NCBI GenBank assembly: GCA_002817055.1
Contig: MUCU01000016.1
Coordinates: forward strand, 1-19,975
Length of the DNA: 19,975 nt
Source of the DNA: SAR202 cluster bacterium Io17-Chloro-G7
Lineage (GTDB): Bacteria > Chloroflexota > Dehalococcoidia > UBA3495
Direction of reading: 5' to 3'
In this document: one piece after another, positions 69 to 17,765 of the stretch
Layout of the letters: the number at the start of each line of letters is the position of its first letter
How positions within the stretch are numbered: the stretch's first letter is position 1
The notes under the pieces: model-generated
Told to the model about the DNA's origin: nothing
Databases searched by the model: none
The model's input: only the letters and a program-made list of their open reading frames with translations
Translations under genes and position numbers: made by a program

Positions 69-90
69 TAAAAATACCCGCACATCGGGT
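69..90 (-). terminator. Possible intrinsic terminator after the membrane-protein gene
   Basis: Read on the minus strand, ACCCG-ATGTG-CGGGT forms a 5-bp stem with a 5-nt loop and is followed by A and five T residues. It begins four bases past the stop codon of the 94-1047 gene, where a terminator is expected. The stem is short, so termination may be leaky. Confidence 0.45.
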
Positions 91-93
91 TAG

Positions 94-1047
94 CTAGGGT
101 CGTGTTCGTTGGGACTCGATTTGCTCGACCAAGAATTGGAGGTCCCGCAACACTTCGTTGACGGTGTCGGGAGCGATCCTGGTGAATTCTAATCCCTCGC
201 TTTGGGAAAGCCCGCTCAGGTCCAGGTTCAACTCCGCTTGAACGTCGCCTGAAGCGTCTTGGAGCTTTAATCCATAGTAGACTAAGGACCGCCTGGTATC
301 AGTGGAAAGCATGCTGGGCCCAACGGGCAGTACGTATTGCTGGTTGAGGCTAATGCTCCCCTCTTCTTTGTTGAAGAACAATGTGCGGGTCGACCCATCG
401 GGGTAATTTAGACGCACCTCGGCGTTCTGTAGGTCGCTTCCCTTCGTGTAATTGTCTACCCTAACGGTGCTTAGGATGGTTTCCAAATTATCGTCATACT
501 GAGCGAAGAAAAGGGTAATGTCCTTTGTCTCGGTATCGACTTGGAAAGTATACCAATTCCTGACCAACTCCCCATGAGGGTACTTAAGTGCTGCTAGCCC
601 TTCTTCCAGTATCTCGCCGAAAACAGCTTCGGGGAATACCTTGGGCATTGAAGCTGAACTGGCCTGTACTGTCGGAGCTGGCGTGGGTTGAGGGTTGGAT
701 TCTTCATCCGCCTCCGCTGCGGCTGAATCGGTGCTGGCTGACGTATCCTCAGCAATGTCCGGTGCTGGAGTTGGCTCCGGTGCTGGTGTCGGGTCGGGAA
801 CGGCGGTGGGTGCTGGCTTCGGGGTTGCCGGGGCAGCCGAAGTCACAGTTAGATTGTCGCTAGTCGGGGCCGTGGAGACGGTGGCTTGGGCACCAGCGTC
901 TTCGGCGTCTTTCGCCGATATGGGGTCAGACCCTCCGTAGAAAAGATAACCCACAACAACTGCCGCAACGGCAACTATGCCGATCGTAGCAATTGCGATA
1001 TGTTTTTTGGTGCTGCGCCCTTCTGGCGCTCTGGAAACTCTCATCAT
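94..1047 (-). CDS. Single-pass membrane protein with Pro/Thr/Ala linker, unknown function
   Basis: I do not recognise the family. The 317-residue protein has a short basic N-terminus (residues 1-15) and one hydrophobic segment at about 16-35, rich in Ala, Val and Ile. A low-complexity linker at about 45-130 is dominated by Ala, Pro, Thr, Ser and Asp/Glu with repeated PTPAPEP-like units. A compact C-terminal domain (about 135-317) looks mostly beta-stranded and has several Tyr-Asp and Asp-Gly turns. The positive-inside rule predicts a cytoplasmic N-terminus and an exported C-terminal domain on a stalk. The start is a double ATG with AAGGGTG about 4 nt upstream on the minus strand. It lies 173 bp downstream of the CetZ/FtsZ-like gene on the same strand and may be co-transcribed with it, so a membrane partner of that GTPase is possible but unproven. 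A surface-exposed or periplasmic sensor domain is an alternative. Confidence 0.8.
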   Translation of the reverse strand: MMRVSRAPEGRSTKKHIAIATIGIVAVAAVVVGYLFYGGSDPISAKDAEDAGAQATVSTAPTSDNLTVTSAAPATPKPAPTAVPDPTPAPEPTPAPDIAEDTSASTDSAAAEADEESNPQPTPAPTVQASSASMPKVFPEAVFGEILEEGLAALKYPHGELVRNWYTFQVDTETKDITLFFAQYDDNLETILSTVRVDNYTKGSDLQNAEVRLNYPDGSTRTLFFNKEEGSISLNQQYVLPVGPSMLSTDTRRSLVYYGLKLQDASGDVQAELNLDLSGLSQSEGLEFTRIAPDTVNEVLRDLQFLVEQIESQRTRP

Positions 1048-1096: not shown

Positions 1097-1121
1097 ACCG
1101 AGCTCGCGAACCGAGCTCGGT
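1097..1121. repeat. Perfect 10-bp inverted repeat between two minus-strand genes
   Basis: ACCGAGCTCG (1097-1106), a 5-nt CGAAC loop and CGAGCTCGGT (1112-1121) form a GC-rich perfect hairpin on either strand. It lies in the 173-bp gap between the GTPase gene and the membrane-protein gene. No T-run follows on either side, so it is not a normal terminator. A processing site, an mRNA-stabilising hairpin that lowers downstream expression, or a protein-binding operator all fit. Confidence 0.5.
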
Positions 1122-1220: not shown

Positions 1221-2477
1221 TTAAAGGTCGGGCAGCAGAGTTGCCGCTTTGGAGGTTTCATGCCAATCATTAAGTCGCCCTATCTTCTTGGCTTTCGTAT
1301 CATCCATCATTTTGGTTGCTTCAATATAGAACGACTCGATCATATCCATGGTGGCGCCCTTTCCGATATTTGAAACTATGACCGTTACGCTGATGGTGTC
1401 GGATGTCCTGCCTGGGTATGTGCCCTTTCGACGACCGGCGCCCGGCACTTTTTCGGACAGGATATTGTCCATCATTTCCACGATCTCTTCGGTTGCTTCA
1501 TGGTCAGGGCCAGCGAACAGACCAAGAACATGTTGGGCATCGTATCTAGACGTTCCGTTTTCCCACAGTTCGCAGTCCACTGAAAGGTCTCCCAACGCAC
1601 GGTTCAATACGTTGGAGGCTCTTTCAATCTGCTCCTTCGACGTAGCAAAGTGTTTGCGGCCCGAACCCCCACCTCTAATCCGATCGAATAAAGAGAGGGA
1701 GCGCTTGGGCACCTGTGTTTGACTTACGCCTATGGCTACAGGCCCGCGCAGGATACGGATCACATCGTTGGCGTCCAACACCTCGCCTATAAACCTGCGG
1801 TCGGTTTCCTCTCCGACGCACAGGATATCCATGAAAGAGTCGGCAATCCTCCGGTTAATAAGGTCGTAGTTCTGGGACATAGACTCGTTGCTTTTGACGA
1901 ACTTCTGGTTGTCAATCAAGAACACAGCATCGGCCTGAGAGTTCTCCATGACTTTTTTCAGGCAGGTAGCGGTGTTGACCATGCTGTCCGGGTCGTCATA
2001 CTGGTTGGCAAATGGAAGCACCAGCATGGCATACACGGGTTTGTGAAAGGCATCCTTCAATACGTCAATGATCACGCCCACCGATCCCGAACCCGTACCG
2101 CCTGCGGTTGTGGCGATGACCATGATCGCATCGGCATGAGGGATATCACCGTGTTCGCGAATCGTCGCGATGATCTTCTTGGCGTCTTTTCGCGCTTGCT
2201 CTGCGCCATCCGCATTAACCTTGCCAGCCCCGCGCCCTCTGAACTCGTCGGTGGTGCCCAGCAGGATCGTGTGGTCTTCGGTATGAGGGATGTGTTTCAA
2301 TCCATAAAGGTCCCCAGCTCCCAGGTTTATAGCAAATACGCCCCGTTCGATGGGGTCGTTCTCCCCACCGGTAAAGATACGAATATGCCTGTTCTTCCAC
2401 ACCCACTTCCCCAGCACAACAAACTCGTCGGCAATATTTGACCCACCTTGTCCGGTCCCAACGACGACAAGCTTCAT
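1221..2477 (-). CDS. Tubulin/FtsZ-superfamily GTPase, CetZ-like
   Basis: This 418-residue protein has the full tubulin-superfamily plan. A nucleotide-binding start is at 4-14 (VVVGTGQGGSN). A T3-like loop with GRGAGKVNADG spans 81-91. The signature GGTGSGS is at 126-132. A helix-6/7 segment NYDLINRRIA is at 203-212. A T7-like loop at 233-241 (VLDANDVIR) keeps two Asp residues (235, 238) in the FtsZ D-x-x-D spacing, so GTP hydrolysis in a polymer looks feasible. A second domain ends near 380-400 with ISVTVIVSNIG, matching the FtsZ/CetZ activation domain. From family knowledge, AINLGAGDLYGLKHIP, the LLG...GRGAG block and the IDNQKF...ESMSQNYDLIN block resemble archaeal CetZ more than FtsZ. The FtsZ disordered tail and C-terminal membrane peptide are missing. 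The ATG has a perfect AAGGAGG 5 nt upstream. It is probably cytoplasmic and could act in shape or membrane remodelling. The FtsZ-like (FtsZl) families are the main alternative. Confidence 0.88.
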   Translation of the reverse strand: MKLVVVGTGQGGSNIADEFVVLGKWVWKNRHIRIFTGGENDPIERGVFAINLGAGDLYGLKHIPHTEDHTILLGTTDEFRGRGAGKVNADGAEQARKDAKKIIATIREHGDIPHADAIMVIATTAGGTGSGSVGVIIDVLKDAFHKPVYAMLVLPFANQYDDPDSMVNTATCLKKVMENSQADAVFLIDNQKFVKSNESMSQNYDLINRRIADSFMDILCVGEETDRRFIGEVLDANDVIRILRGPVAIGVSQTQVPKRSLSLFDRIRGGGSGRKHFATSKEQIERASNVLNRALGDLSVDCELWENGTSRYDAQHVLGLFAGPDHEATEEIVEMMDNILSEKVPGAGRRKGTYPGRTSDTISVTVIVSNIGKGATMDMIESFYIEATKMMDDTKAKKIGRLNDWHETSKAATLLPDL

Positions 2478-3939: not shown

Positions 3940-4899
3940 CTAGAGTCCGGTCAGAGCTTCGGTTAGGGCTTCATCCAATTCATCCAATGTGGCAAACCCC
4001 TCAAACTTGTGGGCTATGCGACCGTCTGCCCCCAGAACGAAGGTCCAAGATTCATTGAACCAGTGGGGAATCTTGCTGAGTCCCCATGCATCGACCAAGG
4101 GATGGAATACCGCCTTGGTCAAATCCCCTTGGATTTCGTGGGGATTGTCGTAAAGTTCAACGTGAATAAAATTCGCCTCCCCAACGTGCCGCTCCTTTAA
4201 CTCCGACACCGTGTCTACTTGAGGCCCGCAAGTGGGGCTGGTGCAAAAGGCTGGTGTGGCAAACACGATAACCGTGGGCCGCCCGGTGATAATGGCGTCG
4301 CCGATGGTCAACTGATAAAGATCCGGGTCAGGGGTGAAGTCTGTTGTCAGCTCCCCTAAACTGCTCACCGAGTGCACTGTCTTGTTTAGGCTCAGCGGTG
4401 GAATAGAGCCAATCTCAGGGACTGTAACCCTTTCGAGCACATCAACCGAGATTTTCCCTTGTACCGGGCCGTCTGGACCGATTACATCGATCTCTAGATT
4501 CCATAGGCCAGCCTTCTCAAAGGTCATCTCGGTGGAATAGGCACCCCGGACACCGTAGGGCCACAAATGAAATTCTGCTCGCTTCGATTCACCCCTTGCC
4601 TGGCCTTCGCCTTGGTATGTGGATGAAACGGTGGCTTCTGGGGCTTTGATCAACGATTGAGACGTGGTCAACAGAAATGAGACCCTTTGAGTCCCGATCC
4701 GAAGTTGAGTCGTGGCCATTATAGGCACAATCTCCCCTTCGCTGGGCCGAGTCAATACTGTGATTGGGGCGATAGTGGGGATTGGTTTCGCGGTTGCCAC
4801 GGCGCCGCATGCAATGGCCAAGATTGTTGCCAGGGCTGTCAGTGCGAAAATCCCCCGCGTAATTAAAAAACGGCGCTCGCCCAATAACCGGCACTTCAT
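3940..4899 (-). CDS. Thioredoxin-fold lipoprotein with CxxxxC motif
   Basis: This is a secreted protein of 319 residues. The N-terminus is basic, followed by a hydrophobic segment ending LAIAC, a somewhat non-standard lipobox, so lipid attachment is likely but not certain. Residues about 45-160 look like an immunoglobulin-type beta domain that includes GLWNLEIDVIGPDG. Residues about 185-319 are thioredoxin-like: TVIVFATPAFCTSPTCGP places two cysteines at 219 and 224, and HWFNESWTFVLGADGRIAHKF matches the later strands. The CxxxxC spacing differs from thioredoxin CxxC and from Sco1 CxxxC, so the role could be thiol exchange or metal delivery. I chose ATG 4899 because GAGGA lies about 7 nt upstream; an in-frame TTG at 4932 would add 11 residues. 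It lies 73 bp downstream of the TlpA-like gene on the same strand, so co-transcription is likely. Confidence 0.82.
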   Translation of the reverse strand: MKCRLLGERRFLITRGIFALTALATILAIACGAVATAKPIPTIAPITVLTRPSEGEIVPIMATTQLRIGTQRVSFLLTTSQSLIKAPEATVSSTYQGEGQARGESKRAEFHLWPYGVRGAYSTEMTFEKAGLWNLEIDVIGPDGPVQGKISVDVLERVTVPEIGSIPPLSLNKTVHSVSSLGELTTDFTPDPDLYQLTIGDAIITGRPTVIVFATPAFCTSPTCGPQVDTVSELKERHVGEANFIHVELYDNPHEIQGDLTKAVFHPLVDAWGLSKIPHWFNESWTFVLGADGRIAHKFEGFATLDELDEALTEALTGL

Positions 4900-4972
4900 C
4901 AGTAATCCTCGTTTTAATGCCGTTCTGTTCAATTACCCCCCAATGCTCTATTAAATATGACCTCCACCAAAT

Positions 4973-6442
4973 CTATGGGCCTTGGGCGTATGCGCCAAAG
5001 GTGAAAGCAAAGAAAGCGAAGTCGCTCGAGTTGGAGCTGAGCTTGAGTTCGTGGCCGCCAAACTCGGGCAAAGCCACCACCTCGTACAAACGCGGCTCAT
5101 CAACCCTAAAGAAGCTGCGGCCTCCCTCAACAATTAAATCGGCGCCAGCCTCCTCAGATGTCAAAGGCCGGCCATCAATTGTAACTTGAACCTCAAACGG
5201 CGGTCCGCCCTCTGGGTCTATCACGGCGTTGATGCTGGTTGCGAAAAATTTCAGTGCAATGTAGTCAGAATAGTCCTGGGTCTCCCGGGCGTGCTTCAAC
5301 TTTTCATCGCCGTTGGTCCAAAGGCCATTTAAATAAACGAACTGGTTCTGGTGGTCGCCCGGGTCAACATATTCCAAGGTCTGATTAGCGCCATCGTAGT
5401 ATTCAGTGTGGGCCACGTAAATACCCTGGCTTGAAGAGTTCCGCCGGAAGCCTCCATAAATCTCTCGGGTAATTCGGGTCGATTGGTCGCTTGAATACGC
5501 CCTGTTGTCAGCTACAGGCTCTTCGACAGTGCTTATTTTCACATCGCCCAGCGATGCTCCCGATTCTTCCAAGAGATTTCTAATCTGTTCTTCCGTTTCG
5601 ATGTAGGCGCCTTCCCCGAAATGGGTGTAACGGACGATGCCTTTGTCGTCGACCAGGTACTTTGCTGGCCAGAACCGGTTGCTATAGGCGGACCACGTAC
5701 CGAAGTCGTTATCCTGGGCGATGGGCCAGGTCAGGTTGTTTTCCGTTAGGCTAGCCTCCACGTTCGCTGTCACTTTTTCGAAATCGAACTCGGGGGTATG
5801 GACTCCAACGATCACTAATCCTTTGTCCTTGTATTTGTCATTCCATTCCCTCAAGTAAGTAAAGGTTCGAATGCAATTGACGCAGGTATAGGTCCAAAAA
5901 TCTATCAGAACCACCTTCCCTTTGAGCTCCTCCATGACCAGCGGCTGAGAGTTGATCCAATTGGAGATTCCCGTAAATTCCGGAGCCTGGTCACCCACCA
6001 TCCCACCGACCTGCCCGGTGGTGGGTAGCGAGATGGGCTCCGATGTTTCAGCCGGTTCGCTCAGTTTACTCAGTTCACTGCTCACTGGGGCCTGAGTCGG
6101 ATCCGTGGCCGGAGATTGACCGTCCTGCGGCGGGCTGGCTGTCGTCGGATTAATCGGGGACTTGGCGACAGTGTCTGAATTGGTCGCCAGCTCTGTAGCC
6201 GCCGAGTTAATTGACCCTGAGCCATTGGACGCTGAGCTAGCGGCTGCAGGGCCAGTTGACGTTGAGCTAGGAGGCGCATCTGTGCGGGCCGCCGTTCCGC
6301 CCGACTGGGATTGGGAGTCGCCGGAATTTGAAGCTGTCGATCCGCCGTTGCCTTCCCCTCCGCACGCCGCTATGAGGAAGGTGATAACCGCAAAAGCTGC
6401 GACTAGAATTGGTCCTCTTAGAATTTTATTTAAAGCCAACAA
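4973..6442 (-). CDS. TlpA/DipZ-like thioredoxin lipoprotein
   Basis: The signal peptide ends in FLIAAC followed by GGEGN, a good lipobox. A Ser/Thr/Ala/Pro-rich linker spans about residues 35-140. A TlpA-type thioredoxin domain follows at about 150-300, with VVLIDFWTYTCVNCIRTF giving catalytic cysteines 187 and 190 and FWPAKYLVDDKG the cis-Pro region. The last 150 residues (from about AYSSDQSTRIT onward, with GGHELKL near the end) match the beta-sandwich module after the thioredoxin domain in mycobacterial DipZ, by my recall of that family. The membrane CcdA part of DipZ is absent. Function: extracytoplasmic disulfide reduction or exchange, perhaps with cytochrome c or metal-centre assembly. 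I chose TTG 6442 because AGGA lies 6 nt upstream and it gives a normal-length signal peptide; the frame stays open to TTG 6556. Confidence 0.88.
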   Translation of the reverse strand: MLALNKILRGPILVAAFAVITFLIAACGGEGNGGSTASNSGDSQSQSGGTAARTDAPPSSTSTGPAAASSASNGSGSINSAATELATNSDTVAKSPINPTTASPPQDGQSPATDPTQAPVSSELSKLSEPAETSEPISLPTTGQVGGMVGDQAPEFTGISNWINSQPLVMEELKGKVVLIDFWTYTCVNCIRTFTYLREWNDKYKDKGLVIVGVHTPEFDFEKVTANVEASLTENNLTWPIAQDNDFGTWSAYSNRFWPAKYLVDDKGIVRYTHFGEGAYIETEEQIRNLLEESGASLGDVKISTVEEPVADNRAYSSDQSTRITREIYGGFRRNSSSQGIYVAHTEYYDGANQTLEYVDPGDHQNQFVYLNGLWTNGDEKLKHARETQDYSDYIALKFFATSINAVIDPEGGPPFEVQVTIDGRPLTSEEAGADLIVEGGRSFFRVDEPRLYEVVALPEFGGHELKLSSNSSDFAFFAFTFGAYAQGP

Positions 6443-6544
6443 AATCGTTCCTATCGCTAGTATTAGATTTTTGGAATCTTGTGCGGGATTTAAGTTAAGC
6501 TGGTTTACCCAAATGCCTGGAAAAAGAGATATTATTTGTTGTGG

Positions 6545-6599
6545 GTCGGGCCCCAATCACATCAGTTGTTCACATCAGTTGTAGGGAATACGGCCCGAC
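6545..6599. repeat. 13-bp tandem duplication enclosed by 8-bp inverted repeats
   Basis: TCACATCAGTTGT occurs twice without a gap (6557-6569 and 6570-6582). GTCGGGCC (6545-6552) and its exact complement GGCCCGAC (6592-6599) enclose the pair. The element sits about 105-155 bp upstream of the TlpA-like start, in its likely promoter zone. It may be a tandem operator or a small insertion footprint. Confidence 0.5.
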
Positions 6600-9022: not shown

Positions 9023-9101
9023 TGAGTCTGGTCGGTACTCTGAACTCAGGTAAAGCCCGGCTTGTTTGTTAGCCCGGCTCACCTCTAAAGAGGGGAATCC
9101 G

Positions 9102-10637
9102 GTGAAGATCGAAAAAGTTACCTTTATTAGCCCTGAATTGCCTTATTGGAATTTGGTGACCCATGCCGTGTTCCCAGAATACGGCGTACCGGTGGTAGCA
9201 ACTCTCACCAGGGACGCCGGGTATGACGTAAAAGCCTATGTGGAGCACATAGGCCCCATCGATTGGGACGATGTCATGAAGTCAGACGTGGTGTGTTTCC
9301 ACGCCTTCAGTTCCACCATGCCGAAAACCATTGACTACATAAAAAAGATCAAGGACGTTAAGCCGGAGATGCCCATCGTCATAGGGGGAACTCACGCTTC
9401 CGTTATGTGGGAGGACACGCTCCAATACTGCGATTTGGTGGTGCGGAAGGAAGGTGACGAAACGCTGCCCGAGGTTTTGGACACATGGAAGAACGATGGT
9501 AACTTAAGTAAAGTCCTTGGGATTTCCTATTGGGACCACGGAAAGGTCAGGAGCACCCCTGACCGGCCATTTACTCAGGACTTTGAGGTTATTCCGGACC
9601 TGGAGCTAATTTCAGGTTATTTGAATTGGCCCCGGTGGAAGCTGCTGTTCAAGCTTAAGATGCGCTGGCAGCTCCTTCAGACAAGCAGAGGGTGCCCTTA
9701 TGACTGCTCCTTTTGTATAGCGCCCAGAGAGTTGGGCCGCGCCTACCGGTTGCGTAGCATCGACAACATAATCGCAGACATCAAGTACCAGCAAAAGCTG
9801 GTTGGCTCCAAGTATTTCTTTATCGTTGACAATCACTTTACGGTAAATAGGCAACGTTCCAAGGACCTGCTAAACCGGATAATAGAAGAGAAAATTCAAT
9901 GGTACGGGATCTGCTTCACTAGGATGGAGGTGGCTCGGGACGAAGAGCTTTTGGCCCTGCTCAAGAAAGCTCAGATCAACACGCTCTACATGGGCCTTGA
10001 ATCTTTCGACAACAACGTATTGAAGCTGCTGAACAAAGCTCAGACCCAGGAAGGCCTGAGGAAATCTTTGGCCACCATAAAATCCCACGGGTTAAGGGTT
10101 TTGGGTTCCTTTGTCATGGGTTCCGACGAAGACACGGTGCAGAGCCTTAGAGCGACAATTCAGTCCGCAATCGAAATAGACATTGATTATGTAGCCCTTT
10201 TCCCGCTGAGCGGCTACCCGGAGTTGAACTCTCCCAACATAAAAATAAACCGGTTCTTCTTGCCTTCATGGGACCGTTTGGACGGGACATTCGTAATGTT
10301 TTTGCCCAAGAATATGAAGCCAAGCACACTGCAACGGGAGATTAACAACGCTTATAAGAAGTTCTACGGACCGAAGCAGGTTATGCGTAGGCTGATCAAA
10401 GGGGACATTTGGTGTGGCCTGAAGCGGATCGCTTACAACTACTGGGCGTGGGAAATCCGTCGCAGCACTAAGACGTGGATAAAGTACCTAGAAAGCGTCG
10501 AGGGCAAGTATTACGACGAAAACGATAAGCTGATTGAAGATATGCTGCCGGAGGAAGGGATTCACCCAGCCCAATTCCCGGGTTCTTCATTGGCGGCGGG
10601 CTTGGAAAGAACGGCCATTACCATGGGTGGGGATTAA
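9102..10637 (+). CDS. B12-binding-type radical SAM protein
   Basis: The 511-residue protein has an N-terminal Rossmann-like domain of the cobalamin-binding type at about 5-140. Its features are the PEYGVPVVATLTRDAGYDV start, VVCFHAFSST and PIVIGGTHASV. A radical SAM core follows at about 185-410 with SRGCPYDCSFC, giving cluster ligands Cys198, Cys202 and Cys205. The supporting strands are FIVDNHFT, MGLESFD and GSFVMGSDEDT. A C-terminal region of about 100 residues is specific to the protein. The classic DxHxxG cobalamin-ligand motif is absent, which is common in this class. Members methylate, cyclise or rearrange unreactive carbons in lipids, tetrapyrroles and natural products; the substrate here is unknown. 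Start: GTG 9102 with AGAGGGG 6 nt upstream; the frame is open to 9066. It has its own promoter and ends at a strong terminator. Two SAM methyltransferases lie beyond it on the opposite strand. Confidence 0.9.
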   Translation: MKIEKVTFISPELPYWNLVTHAVFPEYGVPVVATLTRDAGYDVKAYVEHIGPIDWDDVMKSDVVCFHAFSSTMPKTIDYIKKIKDVKPEMPIVIGGTHASVMWEDTLQYCDLVVRKEGDETLPEVLDTWKNDGNLSKVLGISYWDHGKVRSTPDRPFTQDFEVIPDLELISGYLNWPRWKLLFKLKMRWQLLQTSRGCPYDCSFCIAPRELGRAYRLRSIDNIIADIKYQQKLVGSKYFFIVDNHFTVNRQRSKDLLNRIIEEKIQWYGICFTRMEVARDEELLALLKKAQINTLYMGLESFDNNVLKLLNKAQTQEGLRKSLATIKSHGLRVLGSFVMGSDEDTVQSLRATIQSAIEIDIDYVALFPLSGYPELNSPNIKINRFFLPSWDRLDGTFVMFLPKNMKPSTLQREINNAYKKFYGPKQVMRRLIKGDIWCGLKRIAYNYWAWEIRRSTKTWIKYLESVEGKYYDENDKLIEDMLPEEGIHPAQFPGSSLAAGLERTAITMGGD

Positions 10638-10735: not shown

Positions 10736-11362
10736 CTACACACGGTAGGCCCAGATCTGGTGGAAAACCTCGGGCTCCCCCTTCGGCAACGGTTGGTATG
10801 GATCGGACGCCTCTGCCAGCTTCCACTTTCCTTGGGCCTCCAACTCGCTCTGCTTTTCTTTAAAACCCGCGCCCTCATACATGTCGGTCCGCAGGCTGAA
10901 CACCACGTGTCCGCCGGGCTTGGTGACCCGTATCAACTCGTCGAAAGCGCTGGCCGGGGCGTGGCCCAGGGTAAACACGCCGACGCTGATCACACCATCG
11001 AAACTGTCGCTGCTAAAGTCTAGGGTTTCCCCCATCACCATTTGGTGGAGCTCGGCGTAAATATTCTTGTTGCGGGCTTCCTCAAGCATCCCTTGGGAAA
11101 GGTCCATCGCCACTAAGTTTGTGAAGCCGAGGGCGGCGAGGGCCTCACCGGCCAATCCAGTCCCTGCTCCTGCGTCCAAGACCTTGGCGGACTTGGGCGT
11201 CAGCTTCGCGAAAACGTCGGCGGCAGTTTGTGGGGCGTTCCAGGCGAAGTCCTCTTCCAAGTCCCGGTCATATTCGCTAGCCCACTGGTCGTACCGCTCC
11301 TCCAACTCCTGATTATTCGTGGATGCGTATACGTATTGAACCTTGTTTTCGGCATCGGGCAT
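10736..11362 (-). CDS. SAM-dependent methyltransferase, METTL27/WBSCR27-like
   Basis: A class I methyltransferase of 208 residues. Motif I is VLDAGAGTGLAG (61-72), motif II is LVAMDLSQGML (83-93), motif III lies around DGVISVGVFTLGH, and a post-motif GGHVVFSL strand follows. The N-terminal VYASTNNQELEERYDQWASEYD pattern is the hallmark, by recall, of the METTL27/WBSCR27-like group, whose substrates are poorly known. It is soluble, with no signal peptide. Start: ATG 11362 with AGGA about 10 nt upstream. It is the last gene of a minus-strand run, 86 bp after the second methyltransferase, and ends at the two-way terminator. The two methyltransferases are not close copies of each other, so recent duplication is unlikely. 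Confidence 0.88.
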   Translation of the reverse strand: MPDAENKVQYVYASTNNQELEERYDQWASEYDRDLEEDFAWNAPQTAADVFAKLTPKSAKVLDAGAGTGLAGEALAALGFTNLVAMDLSQGMLEEARNKNIYAELHQMVMGETLDFSSDSFDGVISVGVFTLGHAPASAFDELIRVTKPGGHVVFSLRTDMYEGAGFKEKQSELEAQGKWKLAEASDPYQPLPKGEPEVFHQIWAYRV

Positions 11363-11448
11363 TCTAAACCGTTCCTAACCGCGCCTCGCCAGATTGAGAT
11401 ATTCCATTCGGATATTGACCGGGCGTAGGTGTCTATCGTCCTCGTATA

Positions 11449-12267
11449 TTACTTCTGGCAGACGAAAAACCCCCACCCTACCTCATTGTCGGTCACCGCT
11501 TGGGCCGTCTGAATGTACGCCGTGGTCAATTCCCGGAAGTGCTCGGCGTGCTCTCCGTCGCTTTTGGGCGTGCGTTCGGACAGGCAAATATAGCTGGTCC
11601 GCAGGTGTTCCGATAAATCACGTGCTTCTAAAATCTTGAATCCCTGGGCCTTTAGAGCAGTCTGATACGACTCGAAGCTGAATTCCGTATCGAATAACAA
11701 CCGGTCATACACGTATTTTTGCGCCTCTGGAGATATGTCCGTTTTGGGCTTAATCAGGTCGTCAAAGACCATGATCCCGCCGTCTTCCAAAACTCGGTAG
11801 GCCTCGCTCAAAGCGTCGGATTTACCATGGACATGATAAATAACCGCCTGACTCCACACATGGGAAAAGGTGCCGTCTTCGAAGGGCAACTCGGTGGCGG
11901 AAGCCTTCTCGAAGGCCAAGCGGCTCTGCAATTCCGGAGTCTGGTTGGAGCGGCTCTTTTCGGCGTTGCCTATCCGTACACCGCTCAAATCCACCCCGGT
12001 GACGCGGCAGCCCTGAGTTTCCGATAGCCAGATGGCGGTTGTTCCGTTTCCGCAGCCCAAGTCAAGAACCTTAGCATCCTGACCGATTTTCCCCTGTTCG
12101 ATCATTATATTGTTGAGGTTGGCGCAGGCCTTGATGAAGTCATTGCCCGTATTTTGGTCGAAGACTCCCCAATGGACGCTTCCTTCCTGGTCCCAAAACG
12201 CACGGTAGATTGCGTCCTGACCGTCGTAATAGGACTCGGTGTCTTGCTCGGTGTATTTGCCGCTCAA
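11449..12267 (-). CDS. SAM-dependent methyltransferase, small-molecule type
   Basis: A class I methyltransferase of 272 residues. Motif I is VLDLGCGNGTTA (67-78), motif II is VTGVDLSGVRI (89-99), an FSHVWSQAVIYHV segment forms the active-site region, and a GGIMVFDDLI strand follows. The N-terminus (YYDGQDAIYRAFW...HWGVFD) resembles the family of sarcosine/dimethylglycine, tocopherol and sterol methyltransferases, which act on small amines or prenylated compounds. The substrate is not readable here. The start is TTG 12267, supported by GGAGGA about 8 nt upstream; no closer ATG is in frame before the conserved start of the fold. It lies 141 bp downstream of panD on the same strand and upstream of the METTL27-like gene. 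Co-transcription is possible but is not shown by overlap. Confidence 0.88.
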   Translation of the reverse strand: MSGKYTEQDTESYYDGQDAIYRAFWDQEGSVHWGVFDQNTGNDFIKACANLNNIMIEQGKIGQDAKVLDLGCGNGTTAIWLSETQGCRVTGVDLSGVRIGNAEKSRSNQTPELQSRLAFEKASATELPFEDGTFSHVWSQAVIYHVHGKSDALSEAYRVLEDGGIMVFDDLIKPKTDISPEAQKYVYDRLLFDTEFSFESYQTALKAQGFKILEARDLSEHLRTSYICLSERTPKSDGEHAEHFRELTTAYIQTAQAVTDNEVGWGFFVCQK

Positions 12268-12408
12268 TCTAGTTTTCCTCCAAATTCGCCGGGAACGTTG
12301 AGCGTGGTAGTTATTTAAGCCGTCGGCGCGCCGTATGGTGAGTATCCCTGGTCCACGGTGCGGGTGAGGCTGTTATATAACATTTGCCCGACGACCGATT
12401 CGATTGGC

Positions 12409-12780
12409 TCAGTGGACCTGCTCAGGGGCTTTGGCGCCTTCCAGGTACTCTACGAACTCGTTTGCTTCATTGACCAGGATCATCTGAGGCTCAATGGGCT
12501 CGTCGGTTGATTCAAATGACATGATGATTACGCAGTTGCCTTGGCTGCTCAGACGAGCTGCGGCGCCTTGGACAGCGATTACGCCGGAGCCTCGCTCGCC
12601 AGCTATCGCATAGGTCTCGAATCGGTTGCCATTGGTTATGTCACATACCAGGACCTTTTCAAAATCCCACAGATCGATGCGCTCCATTAACTCTTCGTCA
12701 ATAAGAATGCTGCCTATGTAATCAGGATTGGCGTCGGTCACGTATGCTCGGTGAATCTTGGACCTTAGTACTATTCTCAT
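12409..12780 (-). CDS. panD: Aspartate 1-decarboxylase
   Basis: PanD makes beta-alanine from L-aspartate for pantothenate and coenzyme A. The 123-residue proenzyme cleaves itself between Gly23 and Ser24 (DYIGSILID), and the new N-terminal pyruvoyl group is the cofactor. The lysine/histidine start RSKIHRAYVT, the NGNRFETYAI segment with the conserved Tyr, ERGSGVI, and the GAAARL loop are all in place, so the enzyme should be active. The last 30 residues are the variable tail. Start: ATG 12780 with AGAGGAAA about 5 nt upstream. No other pantothenate gene is nearby. The gene is transcribed toward the two methyltransferases, and a short hairpin lies in its leader. Confidence 0.95.
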   Translation of the reverse strand: MRIVLRSKIHRAYVTDANPDYIGSILIDEELMERIDLWDFEKVLVCDITNGNRFETYAIAGERGSGVIAVQGAAARLSSQGNCVIIMSFESTDEPIEPQMILVNEANEFVEYLEGAKAPEQVH

Positions 12781-13994: not shown

Positions 13995-16900
13995 TTACAC
14001 GGACAGTTCTTCTTCGTCGTAGGCTTCTTGGTAGGCTTCGTCATGGGCCCCGTGCTTGTCCTCCAACGATACTGTGCCAGGTCCCAACAGTGATTCTAGA
14101 CGCACCTGCAGGTCTTGGCAGTAACCGGTACTTACCACCGGCAACTCCATAACAACTCGGCGTCCCCCGGTATAAATGTTTAGATTAACCCGGTCTTTAC
14201 CTGGGTAGTCTAGAATGACGCCGATAACCTCCCGTAGGAGCTGGGTATCGCTGAGGGCATCGTCGGTTTCGGTCACCCCCAATAGAACGGTCCGAGGATA
14301 AGACTGATCAATCACTGGTTTGCCACCACCATTTGAGGCTGAGCCAGCTTTGCCCACACTGCGTGAACGGTTACCATTGGCGAGGGTGGCGGCTTTGCCG
14401 TTTGCGCGGTTCCCGGCGTTGCCGTTGCCATTGCCGTTGCCATTGGGATTGAAGGAGGAAACGCCGTTTGGGGAATCGGTCTGCGTTTCACTAGGCAAAT
14501 ATTCTTTAACCTGGTCACAGACCAGAGAAAACTGGTCGGCGCGAAGGCGGAGCTTGCCGGTTACATTTACCAATTTCCCTTCCTGCCATGTCTCTGGAGT
14601 CCGTTCCAACACCTCGGGCCAGACTATCACCTCCATCGGCCCACCCAATAGGTCGAGGGTGACTATAAGGAATTTCTTTTGCTCCTTGGTGTAACGCTCA
14701 TTGAGGGCAGACACATGGCCCAGCACGGTCATCGTTTGACCCTGCTTGCTTTCATCAAGCTGGTCTAAAGTAGCCGTTGCGTTGCCGGGGTCCAGTGAGG
14801 CTAGAACCCGCAGAGGGTTGACGGAAAGTGGCAGCCCTAGAAGTTCTCTCTCCCATGTCGCTTTCTCCTCTGCGGTCACGTCGGGGCCGGTTAGGGGTAT
14901 TCCAGGCGTCTGGTCTATACCAGCCCGCTCGGATTCTCCGCCGAACATGCTTGTTTGCCCGGAGTCGCGCGTACGGGCTTCCCGCTGGGCCGTGGCTACG
15001 ATACGGTCTACAGCCTCAAGTACCGCACCTCTGGGGGCCATGCTGTCGAATGCGCCGGCTTTGATCAAGCTTTCCATGGTGCGCCGGTTGAGTCCCCGCG
15101 GGTCTGCTCTTCGGCAGAAATCATCGATGGAAGCGAAGTCACCGTTGGTTTTCCGTTCTTCAACTAAAGGACGTACTGCGCCTTCACCCACGGTCTTCAC
15201 CGCAGCCAATCCCATGCGAATGCCTGGAGTCCCACCGTTCCCATTTTCTGCGTGCTCGCCATTTCCTTTTGGTGGGTTTTCTCCCCGTGTTTTTTCGCCG
15301 GAGTTTCCTTTTTCGATGCTAAAGAACTCTTCCGATTTGTTAATATCCGGCAAAAGGACCGGAATGCCCAATCGGAAGCACTCATTTATGGATGTAACGA
15401 TCTTATCGGGATGGTCCATTCGGGAATTTAGTACCGAGGTCATGTATTCCAAAGGATAGTGTGATTTAAAATACGCAGTCCAATAGGAAATAAGGGCATA
15501 GCTGACGCTGTGGGCTTTGTTGAAGGCGTATCCGGCAAATGGCTCGATAAGGTTGAAGATATCAATCGCAAGAGCTTCATCGAAACCCTTATTTCGGGCA
15601 CCTTCGACAAACCTTTCCCGTTCCTGGGCCATCAGAGCAGCAATTTTCTTCCCCATAGCTTTTCGGACAATGTCCGCACTGCCCAAGGTGTAGCCCGCGA
15701 ACTGCTGGAGTATTAGCAGCACTTGGTCTTGGTAGACAATGATGCCGTAGGTCTCGTCCAGCAGGTCTTTGAGGCTAGGATGAGGATAACTGACCGCCAC
15801 CCGCCCGAATTTGGCGTCGATGAATGTATCTATGTTCTCCATCGGTCCGGGACGGTAGAGTGCGATCATGGCGGCGATGTCCCCCAGATTGGAGGGCTTT
15901 AGCTCTTTTATGTACCGCTGCATGCCAGCGCTTTCCAGTTGGAACAGGTCGGTGGTGTTACCGGAAGAAAGCAACTCGAAAGCGGCCGTATCATCCAAAG
16001 GCAGGCGGTCCAGATCGATCCGGATGCCTTGGGTCTGGTCTAGGAGCTTGATGGCCCGGTCGAGAATTGTCAGGTTGGTCAAACCCAGGAAGTCCATTTT
16101 CAGCAGGCCCAAGTGGGCAACGGGGTCCATGGAAAACTGGGTCATCAGGACTGGGCTGTCCTCATCGCCGCGGACGGGCCGTTGTAATGGGACGGTCTCG
16201 GTCAATGGCTCGGATGCGATGAGCACGCCAGCGGCGTGGGTGCTGACGTGATGGACTATGCCTTCCAGACCCTGGGCAGTATCCACCAATTTGCTAATCG
16301 GCGCCTCGTTATCATAGGCCGATTGGAACTCGCTGTTGGCTTTCAACGCATCTGCCAGAGTGCGGGACTTTAAGGGCACCATGCGAGCAATGCGGTCCAC
16401 ATCCCCGTAGGGCATACCCAAAGCCCGACCAACGTCACGAAGGGCCGCTTTGGCGCCCAGGGTGCCAAAGGTGATGATCTGTGCCACCCGGTCGCTTCCG
16501 TAGCGGTCGACCACATAGTGGAGCACCTCGTCTCTACGATCGTCCTGGAAGTCCAAGTCAATGTCCGGCATTTCCTTGCGTTCCAGGTTGAGGAACCGCT
16601 CGAATACCAGCCGGTACTCCAACGGGTCCACGTTGGTAATTCCCAAGCAATACAGGGCCACGCTACCGGCGGCGCTGCCCCGAACGCCGTACATTATCCC
16701 GTTGCGCCGTACGAAATCGATGATGTCCCAAACAACGAGGAAGTAGTTGGCGAAATTGGTGTACTGAATCACCTCCAACTCATACTTCAACCGTTCTTGT
16801 TCAGCCTGCGTCGGATGAGGGTAACGGGTTTTGAATCCCTCCCAACACAGTTGAGCCAGGTATTGGTCGGCGTCCAAGTCGCCCGGGACTGGATATTTTG

Positions 16901-17765
16901 GGAGGTGAGTCTGGCCGAATTCCAAATCCACTCGGCACATGTCGGAGATAAGTTGGGTGTTGGCCAGACCAACCGGGAAATCCGAGAATATCTGGGCCAT
17001 TTCCTGAGGACTCTTAATGTAGTAGGAGTCCTCTTCCATCCGCAGGCGTTTCTCATCTTGGACCGTCGTGTTGGTTTGGATGCAGATGTATATATCCTGC
17101 AGCGGCGAGTCCTGTTGCCGCACGTAGTGGACGTCGTTGGTGACCACCAAGGGAATATCCAGGTCCTTTCCCAACTGCACCAATGCCTGATTGATCTCAG
17201 GCAGGTTGGGGACGTGTTCGTGGCGCTGTATCTCCAAGAAGTAACCATCGCCGAAGCGTTCTTTGTACCAACGGGCCACCTTGGCCGCTTCCTCGACGTT
17301 GCCGTCGGTCAGAAGCCGAGGCACTTCGGCGGAAGGGCAACCGGAAAGGGCTATCAAGCCTTGGTGGTGTTCCTCCAGAAGAGCGCTGTCAATTCGAGGG
17401 CGATAGTGGAATCCTTCGACGTGGGCTTGAGTGACCAGACGCATCAGGTTTTGGTAGCCGGTGTTATCCCTGGCCAAGAGTACCAAATGATGGGGACTGC
17501 GCTCACTGGCGGACCGATCGAATCGACTGGAGTGGGCCACATAGACCTCGCAGCCTATGATGGGTTTGATGCCCGCGTCTTTACATGCGGAATAGAAATC
17601 GACCACGCCGTAGAACGTGCCGTGGTCGGTGATGGCCAAAGAATCCATCCCCAATTCCTTGGTGCGCGCGACCAAATCTGGGATACGGCTGATGCCGTCG
17701 AGCATGCTGTATTCGGTATGGGTGTGCAGATGAGTGAATGGGGCTTGTGGGGCTGGTTCGGGCAT
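13995..17765 (-). CDS. dnaE: DNA polymerase III alpha subunit
   Basis: This is the replicative polymerase catalytic subunit, 1256 residues. The order is: PHP domain (about 8-280) with intact-looking metal motifs HLHTHTEYS, TDHG, GCEVYV and NDVHYV; palm with PDIDLDF, giving catalytic Asp401 and Asp403; KMDFLGL with the third catalytic Asp558; fingers and HhH region; OB fold (about 1012-1090) with MTVLGHVSALNERYT; then a C-terminal beta-domain. Asp401 and Asp403 match E. coli numbering exactly. Two low-complexity Asn/Gly-rich insertions sit at about 818-846 and 1102-1150, the second separating the OB fold from the tail and explaining the length above the usual 1160. The well-kept PHP suggests proofreading ability, as in Thermus-type DnaE. 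Start: ATG 17765 with GGAGG about 4 nt upstream. No intein is seen. It is monocistronic here. Confidence 0.97.
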   Translation of the reverse strand: MPEPAPQAPFTHLHTHTEYSMLDGISRIPDLVARTKELGMDSLAITDHGTFYGVVDFYSACKDAGIKPIIGCEVYVAHSSRFDRSASERSPHHLVLLARDNTGYQNLMRLVTQAHVEGFHYRPRIDSALLEEHHQGLIALSGCPSAEVPRLLTDGNVEEAAKVARWYKERFGDGYFLEIQRHEHVPNLPEINQALVQLGKDLDIPLVVTNDVHYVRQQDSPLQDIYICIQTNTTVQDEKRLRMEEDSYYIKSPQEMAQIFSDFPVGLANTQLISDMCRVDLEFGQTHLPKYPVPGDLDADQYLAQLCWEGFKTRYPHPTQAEQERLKYELEVIQYTNFANYFLVVWDIIDFVRRNGIMYGVRGSAAGSVALYCLGITNVDPLEYRLVFERFLNLERKEMPDIDLDFQDDRRDEVLHYVVDRYGSDRVAQIITFGTLGAKAALRDVGRALGMPYGDVDRIARMVPLKSRTLADALKANSEFQSAYDNEAPISKLVDTAQGLEGIVHHVSTHAAGVLIASEPLTETVPLQRPVRGDEDSPVLMTQFSMDPVAHLGLLKMDFLGLTNLTILDRAIKLLDQTQGIRIDLDRLPLDDTAAFELLSSGNTTDLFQLESAGMQRYIKELKPSNLGDIAAMIALYRPGPMENIDTFIDAKFGRVAVSYPHPSLKDLLDETYGIIVYQDQVLLILQQFAGYTLGSADIVRKAMGKKIAALMAQERERFVEGARNKGFDEALAIDIFNLIEPFAGYAFNKAHSVSYALISYWTAYFKSHYPLEYMTSVLNSRMDHPDKIVTSINECFRLGIPVLLPDINKSEEFFSIEKGNSGEKTRGENPPKGNGEHAENGNGGTPGIRMGLAAVKTVGEGAVRPLVEERKTNGDFASIDDFCRRADPRGLNRRTMESLIKAGAFDSMAPRGAVLEAVDRIVATAQREARTRDSGQTSMFGGESERAGIDQTPGIPLTGPDVTAEEKATWERELLGLPLSVNPLRVLASLDPGNATATLDQLDESKQGQTMTVLGHVSALNERYTKEQKKFLIVTLDLLGGPMEVIVWPEVLERTPETWQEGKLVNVTGKLRLRADQFSLVCDQVKEYLPSETQTDSPNGVSSFNPNGNGNGNGNAGNRANGKAATLANGNRSRSVGKAGSASNGGGKPVIDQSYPRTVLLGVTETDDALSDTQLLREVIGVILDYPGKDRVNLNIYTGGRRVVMELPVVSTGYCQDLQVRLESLLGPGTVSLEDKHGAHDEAYQEAYDEEELSV
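14418..14447. repeat. Hexanucleotide repeat inside dnaE
   Basis: Five tandem units, GTTGCC (twice), ATTGCC, GTTGCC and ATTGGG, encode the Asn-Gly run in the linker before the DnaE C-terminal tail. The unit is six bases, so gain or loss of units keeps the frame and only changes linker length. Confidence 0.7.

Follow-up and report, generated by a model that had tools for sequence, protein, structure and literature searches.

A CetZ-family GTPase gene beside a gene for a predicted membrane protein in a SAR202 bacterium

Results

Genes and features at the locus

The window, i.e., the whole stretch of DNA analysed here, comprises 19,975 nucleotides from a SAR202 cluster bacterium. One complete open reading frame of 418 codons, running from ATG to stop, occupies positions 1221-2477 of the minus strand and encodes a protein of 418 amino acids. 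Directly downstream on the same strand lies a gene for a predicted single-pass membrane protein, referred to below as the partner. The CetZ of the window and its relatives from 19 loci were designated S-type. The features of both genes are listed below; motif conservation in CetZ was counted over 52 aligned sequences, the window's own included.

1221..2477, minus strand: cetZ-like gene, S-type (open reading frame; PF00091 at 79.7 bits, cut-off 33, and PF21011 at 49.5 bits, cut-off 21.6)
1893..2471, minus strand: GTPase domain, residues 3-195 (PF00091 match)
1350..1886, minus strand: CetZ_C domain, residues 198-376 (PF21011, E 4.5e-13)
2082..2102, minus strand: GGTGSGS loop (T4), residues 126-132 (G126-G131 invariant in 52 rows)
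1761..1778, minus strand: LDANDV (T7-like), residues 234-239 (D235, A236 and D238 invariant in 52 rows)
1224..1235, minus strand: LPDL peptide at the C-terminus, following the long helix 375-413 (P416 invariant, L418 in at least 90% of 52 rows)
1098..1120, minus strand: perfect 9-bp inverted repeat with a 5-base loop and no T run, between cetZ and the partner gene (found by eye)
94..1047, minus strand: partner gene, single-pass membrane protein of 317 amino acids (open reading frame, locus comparison)
1015..1041, minus strand: N-terminal peptide RVSRAPEGR, residues 3-11, predicted cytoplasmic (R6, E9 and R11 invariant in 18 of 18 rows)
937..999, minus strand: transmembrane helix, approximately residues 17-37 (hydropathy and charge count; helix at 14-37 in the model)
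655..933, minus strand: P/T-rich linker at residues 39-131, for the most part modelled as disordered (pLDDT low along most of its length, column identity 0.29)
175..615, minus strand: predicted extracytoplasmic beta domain, residues 145-291 (strands; pLDDT of ten-residue blocks 83-96 over residues 141-240 and 63-84 over 241-290)
106..171, minus strand: C-terminal helix of the partner, residues 293-314 (model)
76..90, minus strand: terminator-like site just after the partner stop codon

The gap between cetZ and the partner gene is about 176 nt in the window and 38-137 nt in 16 relatives, and the two genes probably form an operon. The hairpin between them is possibly a processing or attenuation element. 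The terminator call is weak, since shuffled sequences gave 4.2 sites on average (sd 2.2) and the region itself seven, and the promoter scan of the window region gave none on the minus strand. No division gene was recognized among five window neighbours scanned with Pfam. Near cetZ, positions 4973-6556 encode an AhpC-TSA/thioredoxin-like protein that scored over the cut-off, and positions 3940-4932 gave only a weak Redoxin match (E 0.035); relatives of both redox-like reading frames (3940-6556) were located near cetZ in five of the 19 loci. Two methyltransferase-like and one PanD-like reading frame, recognized by eye at 10736-12780, had no BLAST relatives in the 19 loci, and the reading frames flanking them, at 9066-10637 and 13995-17765, matched the nearest relative, L016.

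The predicted model of the CetZ protein (mean pLDDT 85.8, pTM 0.87) contains a long terminal helix, residues 375-413, and the chain ends in LLPDL. Ten of the 12 S-type sequences in our tree have an LP[DN]L end; L017 has VPLL there instead, and in L019 the LPNL lies six residues short of the end. D-type sequences, described below, carry a terminal DIPSLL or variants of it, and four of seven haloarchaeal plasmid CetZs have a short terminal peptide as well (ELDPLF, ELDALF, ELDSIFN, RLENLF). The conserved LP[DN]L near the C-terminus suggests that CetZ also binds something via its tail; that the partner protein is what the tail binds is a guess. An earlier note on this DNA had stated that both the tail and the peptide of FtsZ were absent. 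It was right as to the FtsZ-type DVPSFLRR peptide and wrong as to a terminal peptide altogether, because a conserved one lies at or near the very C-terminus. The GGTGSGS and LDANDV motifs that it had named are both present, and the blocks that had appeared to resemble archaeal CetZ do so in the alignment: AINLGAGDLYGLKHIP aligned with AVNSAKADLLGLKNIP, and ESMSQNYDLIN with ESVQGGYDEIN, in 4b46.

Assignment to the CetZ family

PF21011 (CetZ_C) scored over its gathering threshold in the window protein and matched all 24 aligned members at E <= 0.001; PF00091 was likewise found in 24 of 24, the window included. With TIGR00065, the FtsZ model, the score of 42.2 bits was far below the cut-off of 295.2. 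The best sequence matches in PDB were 4b46 (1.3e-27; 100.2 bits), 4b45, and 3zid, which we take to be Haloferax CetZ1, Haloferax CetZ2, and a methanogen CetZ, respectively; their entry titles read FtsZ or tubulin/FtsZ GTPase.

Several other identities were considered and rejected. For canonical FtsZ, the TIGR00065 score lay under the cut-off and the DIPxFLR-type peptide was absent. TubZ/PhuZ was matched weakly (PHROG 4733 at E 0.0029; TubZ entry 4xcq at 36.7 bits versus 100.2 for 4b46), as were the tubulins and BtubA/B (best tubulin 22.1 bits, BtubB 17.9, PDB sequences), and the Tubulin_2 domain of FtsZ-like proteins, PF13809, reached 20.8 bits against a cut-off of 27. A chance reading frame was ruled out by the 1077 matching protein clusters described below.

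In a tree of 54 rows, drawn with midpoint rooting, with long branches and without tubulins or archaeal FtsZ among the rows, FtsZ was split from everything else at 100/100, and the window protein was placed on the CetZ side. The S-type sequences formed one clade (100/99), sister (89/90) to a group (92/98) that contained archaeal CetZ, the C-type sequences, and L057. After removal of 3zid and the C-type, a topology that unites the bacterial S-, D-, and E-types in one clade was not rejected (p-AU 0.476). These comparisons support the assignment of the window protein to the CetZ family in a broad sense.

Relatives and separate FtsZ

A search over 5.8 billion proteins gave 1077 matching protein clusters at E <= 1e-3. 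Among the 120 matches listed, identities were 69-92%, all had PF00091 together with PF21011, and the names that bear an organism were those of Chloroflexi/Chloroflexota or Dehalococcoidia. Scanning genome contigs yielded 19 loci, of which 18 are titled Chloroflexota, Dehalococcoidia, or SAR202, and one, L019, is titled "uncultured bacterium". The nearest relative locus, L016, is 92% identical.

Canonical FtsZ over the cut-off was present in 17 of 18 S-type genomes, the exception being G016, an assembly of 1.6 Mb, and in 62 of 63 genomes when 43 genomes with CetZ and 20 without were taken together. Where an S-type genome had ftsZ, it was on a contig other than that of cetZ in 16 of 17 cases, and in G002 it was about 1.8 Mb away. 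The FtsZs of related genomes, e.g., G015, end in DVPSFLRR...GFFR. The CetZ_C score, the PDB matches, the tree, the Chloroflexota/SAR202 relatives, and the separate FtsZ in relatives together argue for a CetZ-like protein in a bacterium. The earlier note had proposed a CetZ-like GTPase of the tubulin superfamily in a bacterial genome, to be abandoned if the protein fell inside canonical FtsZ, or if the genome had a normal division cluster at this locus and no other ftsZ; its proposal was supported by the profile scores, by the placement outside canonical FtsZ, and, as checked in the genomes of the relatives, by the separate ftsZ.

A further tubulin, named C-type, was found in five of the 18 S-type genomes, as a canonical-looking second CetZ (L050-L054 in G012, G015, G009, G003, and G001); the four sequences long enough for the tree grouped with 4b46 and haloarchaeal CetZ (95/96). 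PF01917 archaellin-type proteins were present in four of these five genomes versus three of the 13 other S-type genomes. The D-type, of approximately 390 amino acids and 34-37% identical to the window CetZ, occurs in Dehalococcoides mccartyi as P0121, which is 100% identical to L072. P0121 is named "cell division protein FtsZ", and its UniRef name is "Tubulin-like protein CetZ". At D-type loci L088, L090, L093, L095, L098, and L104 a long reading frame that by eye resembles a coiled coil stands beside one cetZ copy and faces it, in L098 as next but one; other D-type copies adjoin reading frames resembling GAPDH and a sensor kinase/regulator, also by eye. L057 (G148, positions 964-2022), from the same phylum sample, is 30-40% identical to haloarchaeal plasmid CetZs and sits beside them on a long branch, possibly as a result of inter-domain transfer. 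Two genomes with CetZ, G084 (L128) and G025 (L132), have two canonical FtsZs each, and the copy examined from each has no DIPxFLR-type terminus.

The partner membrane protein

The model of the partner had a mean pLDDT of 71.8. The protein gave no Pfam family at E <= 1 and no convincing relative in PDB, where the best match (E 0.043) covered the N-terminal, transmembrane, and linker stretch. When 18 partner members were compared with Pfam, nine families appeared, each matched by at most one member.

Of the relative loci, 17 extend downstream of cetZ, and each of these has a same-strand partner gene 3' of it; 16 were recognized by BLAST and L013 by motif, transmembrane helix, and position. The L013 partner keeps the N-terminal peptide and the transmembrane helix, but its outer domain is another one. 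Contig ends cut off L015 and L019; even so, L019 shows the start of a reading frame with R-I-S-E-G-R and a transmembrane helix after cetZ, and in its genome, G018, a partner domain was found at the end of a different contig. In G001 cetZ is duplicated, and both copies have a partner. The outer neighbours of the pair fell into at least two contexts among the relative loci, so cetZ and the partner gene are the constant unit.

Conservation along the partner was uneven. Mean column identity was 0.72 in the N-terminal peptide, in which R-x-x-E-x-R is invariant, 0.41 in the transmembrane helix, 0.29 in the linker, 0.53-0.58 in the outer domain, and 0.52 in the C-terminal helix. Three to six lysines and arginines precede the transmembrane helix and zero to two are found in the 20 residues after it; because the positive charges come before the helix, the N-terminal peptide should be cytoplasmic.

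A profile of the partner was positive in 17 of 18 S-type genomes, 16 of which had supplied sequences to the profile, so that only G018 counts as independent; the miss was G014, in which the cetZ contig ends. In the 25 CetZ-bearing genomes without S-type cetZ the profile gave two linker-level matches, at 21.6 and 30.8 bits. The D-type CetZ goes without such a partner, so this type of anchor is no general feature of CetZ.

Peptidoglycan and MreB genes

The gene content of 43 genomes with CetZ, 18 of them S-type, was compared with that of 20 Chloroflexota genomes without CetZ, namely those listed out of the 374 CetZ-free genomes in the phylum sample. MurG was found at 1e-20 in one of 43 versus 20 of 20 (over the cut-off, 1/43 versus 7/20). 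For MraY the numbers over the cut-off were 0/43 and 15/20, and any match at 0.001 was obtained in 1/43 and 20/20, five of the latter being below the cut-off. MreB scored over the cut-off in 1/43 and 16/20. Some match to the MreB model at E <= 0.001 was obtained in 62 of 63 genomes; the listed matches from CetZ-bearing genomes other than G018 did not exceed about 52 bits, with the cut-off at 366, and these are presumably other proteins of the actin/Hsp70 type. Thus MurG (1e-20), MraY (0.001), and MreB (over the cut-off) were all not found in 42 of the 43 genomes with CetZ, and in 17 of the 18 S-type ones.

Larger samples gave the same separation. Of 400 genomes in the phylum sample, 26 had CetZ (the same set with two queries) and 267 had MraY at 1e-50 (262 over the cut-off), with no overlap; in the class sample of 128 genomes, 26 had CetZ, 54 had MraY (1e-10), none had both, and 48 had neither; CetZ is thus missing as well from many genomes in which MraY is. 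The non-overlap was checked by eye, genome by genome. The phylum tables speak mainly for other CetZ types, as G015 was the only S-type genome among the loci examined there.

The exception was always G018, an assembly of 0.6 Mb (L019, L139-L142) that holds an S-type cetZ, the partner, MurG, MreB, and a MraY match below the cut-off. Its cetZ is the most distant of the S-type (55%), with one close relative (99%) among the 120 matches listed. The genome may be genuine, because its cetZ and ftsZ contigs are alike in base composition (46%); it may also reflect a transfer, or a mixed bin.

Discussion

The reading we prefer, with a probability of roughly 0.55, is that the locus encodes a CetZ cytoskeleton tied to the membrane in wall-less bacteria, as a two-gene module beside canonical FtsZ. 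Its basis is the sequence family, the gene pairing, the motif conservation, the co-occurrence, and the separate FtsZ in relatives. CetZ would probably form GTP-dependent polymers in the cytoplasm. The partner, predicted to span the membrane once with its N-terminus inside, probably binds CetZ through the R-x-x-E-x-R peptide, perhaps at the CetZ tail or surface, and would keep the filaments at the membrane; the linker and beta domain of the partner would extend outward to the protein envelope. A likely role of such an assembly would be to shape or organise the envelope of cells that lack peptidoglycan and MreB.

Other explanations have to be weighed against this one. CetZ could act in division, as a second subunit of FtsZ type that helps to constrict wall-less cells and is anchored to the membrane by the partner. 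Its terminal LPxL in the S-type, or the DIPSLL-like end in the D-type, does resemble the C-terminal peptide of FtsZ, S-type relatives keep FtsZ (17/18), a passage of PMC9856176 gives two FtsZs for most archaea, and one in PMC11994032 describes SAR202 as having no ftsW or ftsI. Still, the window protein scores 42 bits against a 295-bit FtsZ cut-off and groups with CetZ, ftsZ is encoded away from the cetZ contig or far along it, and the canonical FtsZ of related genomes has a DVPSFLRR-type peptide of its own, so we hold a role in constriction to be rather unlikely. It is quite improbable that CetZ positions a surface machine (archaellum or type IV pilus), a function reported for CetZ1 of haloarchaea and suggested for CetZ2. 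The excerpts of PMC11621097 describe an effect of CetZ1 on the placement of ArlD and CheW, those of PMC9856176 link cetZ2 to pili, and seven of 18 S-type genomes have PF01917 archaellin-type proteins; yet the other 11, although some assemblies may be incomplete, gave no PF01917 match, and a Pfam scan of 15 neighbour proteins recognized no pilus protein. A main role in positioning the archaellum is thereby weakened.

The partner might also be a mere neighbour, an envelope protein co-transcribed with cetZ and without contact to it. The proposed interaction is built on genomic linkage only, and the partner belongs to no known family. However, the pair is kept in 17 of 17 loci and in at least two outer contexts, it is duplicated in G001 and recurs in the L019/G018 lineage as far as contig ends allow, and the best-conserved part of the partner is the predicted cytoplasmic peptide, even where the outer domain differs (L013). 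We therefore regard simple adjacency as unlikely, and favour the membrane-tied cytoskeleton.

CetZ-like proteins of Chloroflexota-Dehalococcoidia have already been named, in one sentence of PMC9871819, so a bacterial CetZ is not new in itself, even though passages of two papers from 2023 and 2024 call CetZ archaea-specific (PMC9856176, PMC11621097). The window protein agrees with that sentence in phylum, class, and CetZ_C similarity; section 7 of PMC9871819 mentions neither subtypes of these proteins nor a partner gene, nor does it connect them with peptidoglycan loss. No open-access paper was found to name CetZ together with SAR202, so CetZ is not named in those of the texts PMC10284905, PMC10444878, PMC11994032, and PMC10608941 that name SAR202. 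In the literature passages on CetZ we met neither the partner pairing nor the absence of murein genes.

Archaeal CetZ (4b46, 4b45, 3zid), for which crystal structures are mentioned in part of PMC9856176, shares with the window protein the GTPase and CetZ_C domains, the side of the FtsZ split, and, in the haloarchaeal plasmid CetZs noted above, a short terminal peptide. The window protein differs in its bacterial host, separate clade, LP[DN]L terminus, and membrane partner gene. The D-type P0121 of Dehalococcoides mccartyi, an organism described as lacking peptidoglycan in a passage of PMC10608941, has CetZ_C and the T7 aspartates in common with it, and has the terminal DIPSLL peptide; the D-type differs in identity, length, and neighbours, and no S-type partner was recognized for it.

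The association between CetZ and the missing wall genes may go back to one inherited event or loss. According to the reconstruction in a passage of PMC10284905, peptidoglycan genes were lost once within Dehalococcoidia, and passages of PMC10444878, PMC11994032, and PMC10608941 describe SAR202 or Dehalococcoidia without peptidoglycan.

The proposed module can be compared with the filaments of FtsZ. These are tethered to the membrane by FtsA, ZipA, and SepF, and the module would work alike, with an adaptor keeping a soluble filament of the tubulin type at the membrane. The adaptor differs from those tethers in that, by prediction, it crosses the membrane once, between a short N-terminal peptide in the cytoplasm and a large outer domain.

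In a bolder form of the proposal, bacteria that had lost peptidoglycan and MreB took up or kept an archaeal-type CetZ and equipped it with a transmembrane adaptor linking its cytoplasmic filaments to the protein envelope (S-layer), as a portable two-gene shape system. We consider this form doubtful; if it is true, CetZ would be the cytoskeleton of wall-less prokaryotes in both domains and not an archaeal peculiarity. The assignment also corrects database names, where entries for such CetZ proteins carry the label "cell division GTPase FtsZ". Among the genomes compared, the bacterial CetZ branch occurs almost only where murein genes are missing by the cut-offs used, with G018 excepted. SAR202 strains are in culture, according to a passage of PMC10444878, and the short conserved peptide offers a defined site for mutation. 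If CetZ has a bacterial branch with its own adaptor, the holding of cell shape without murein or MreB would become directly testable.
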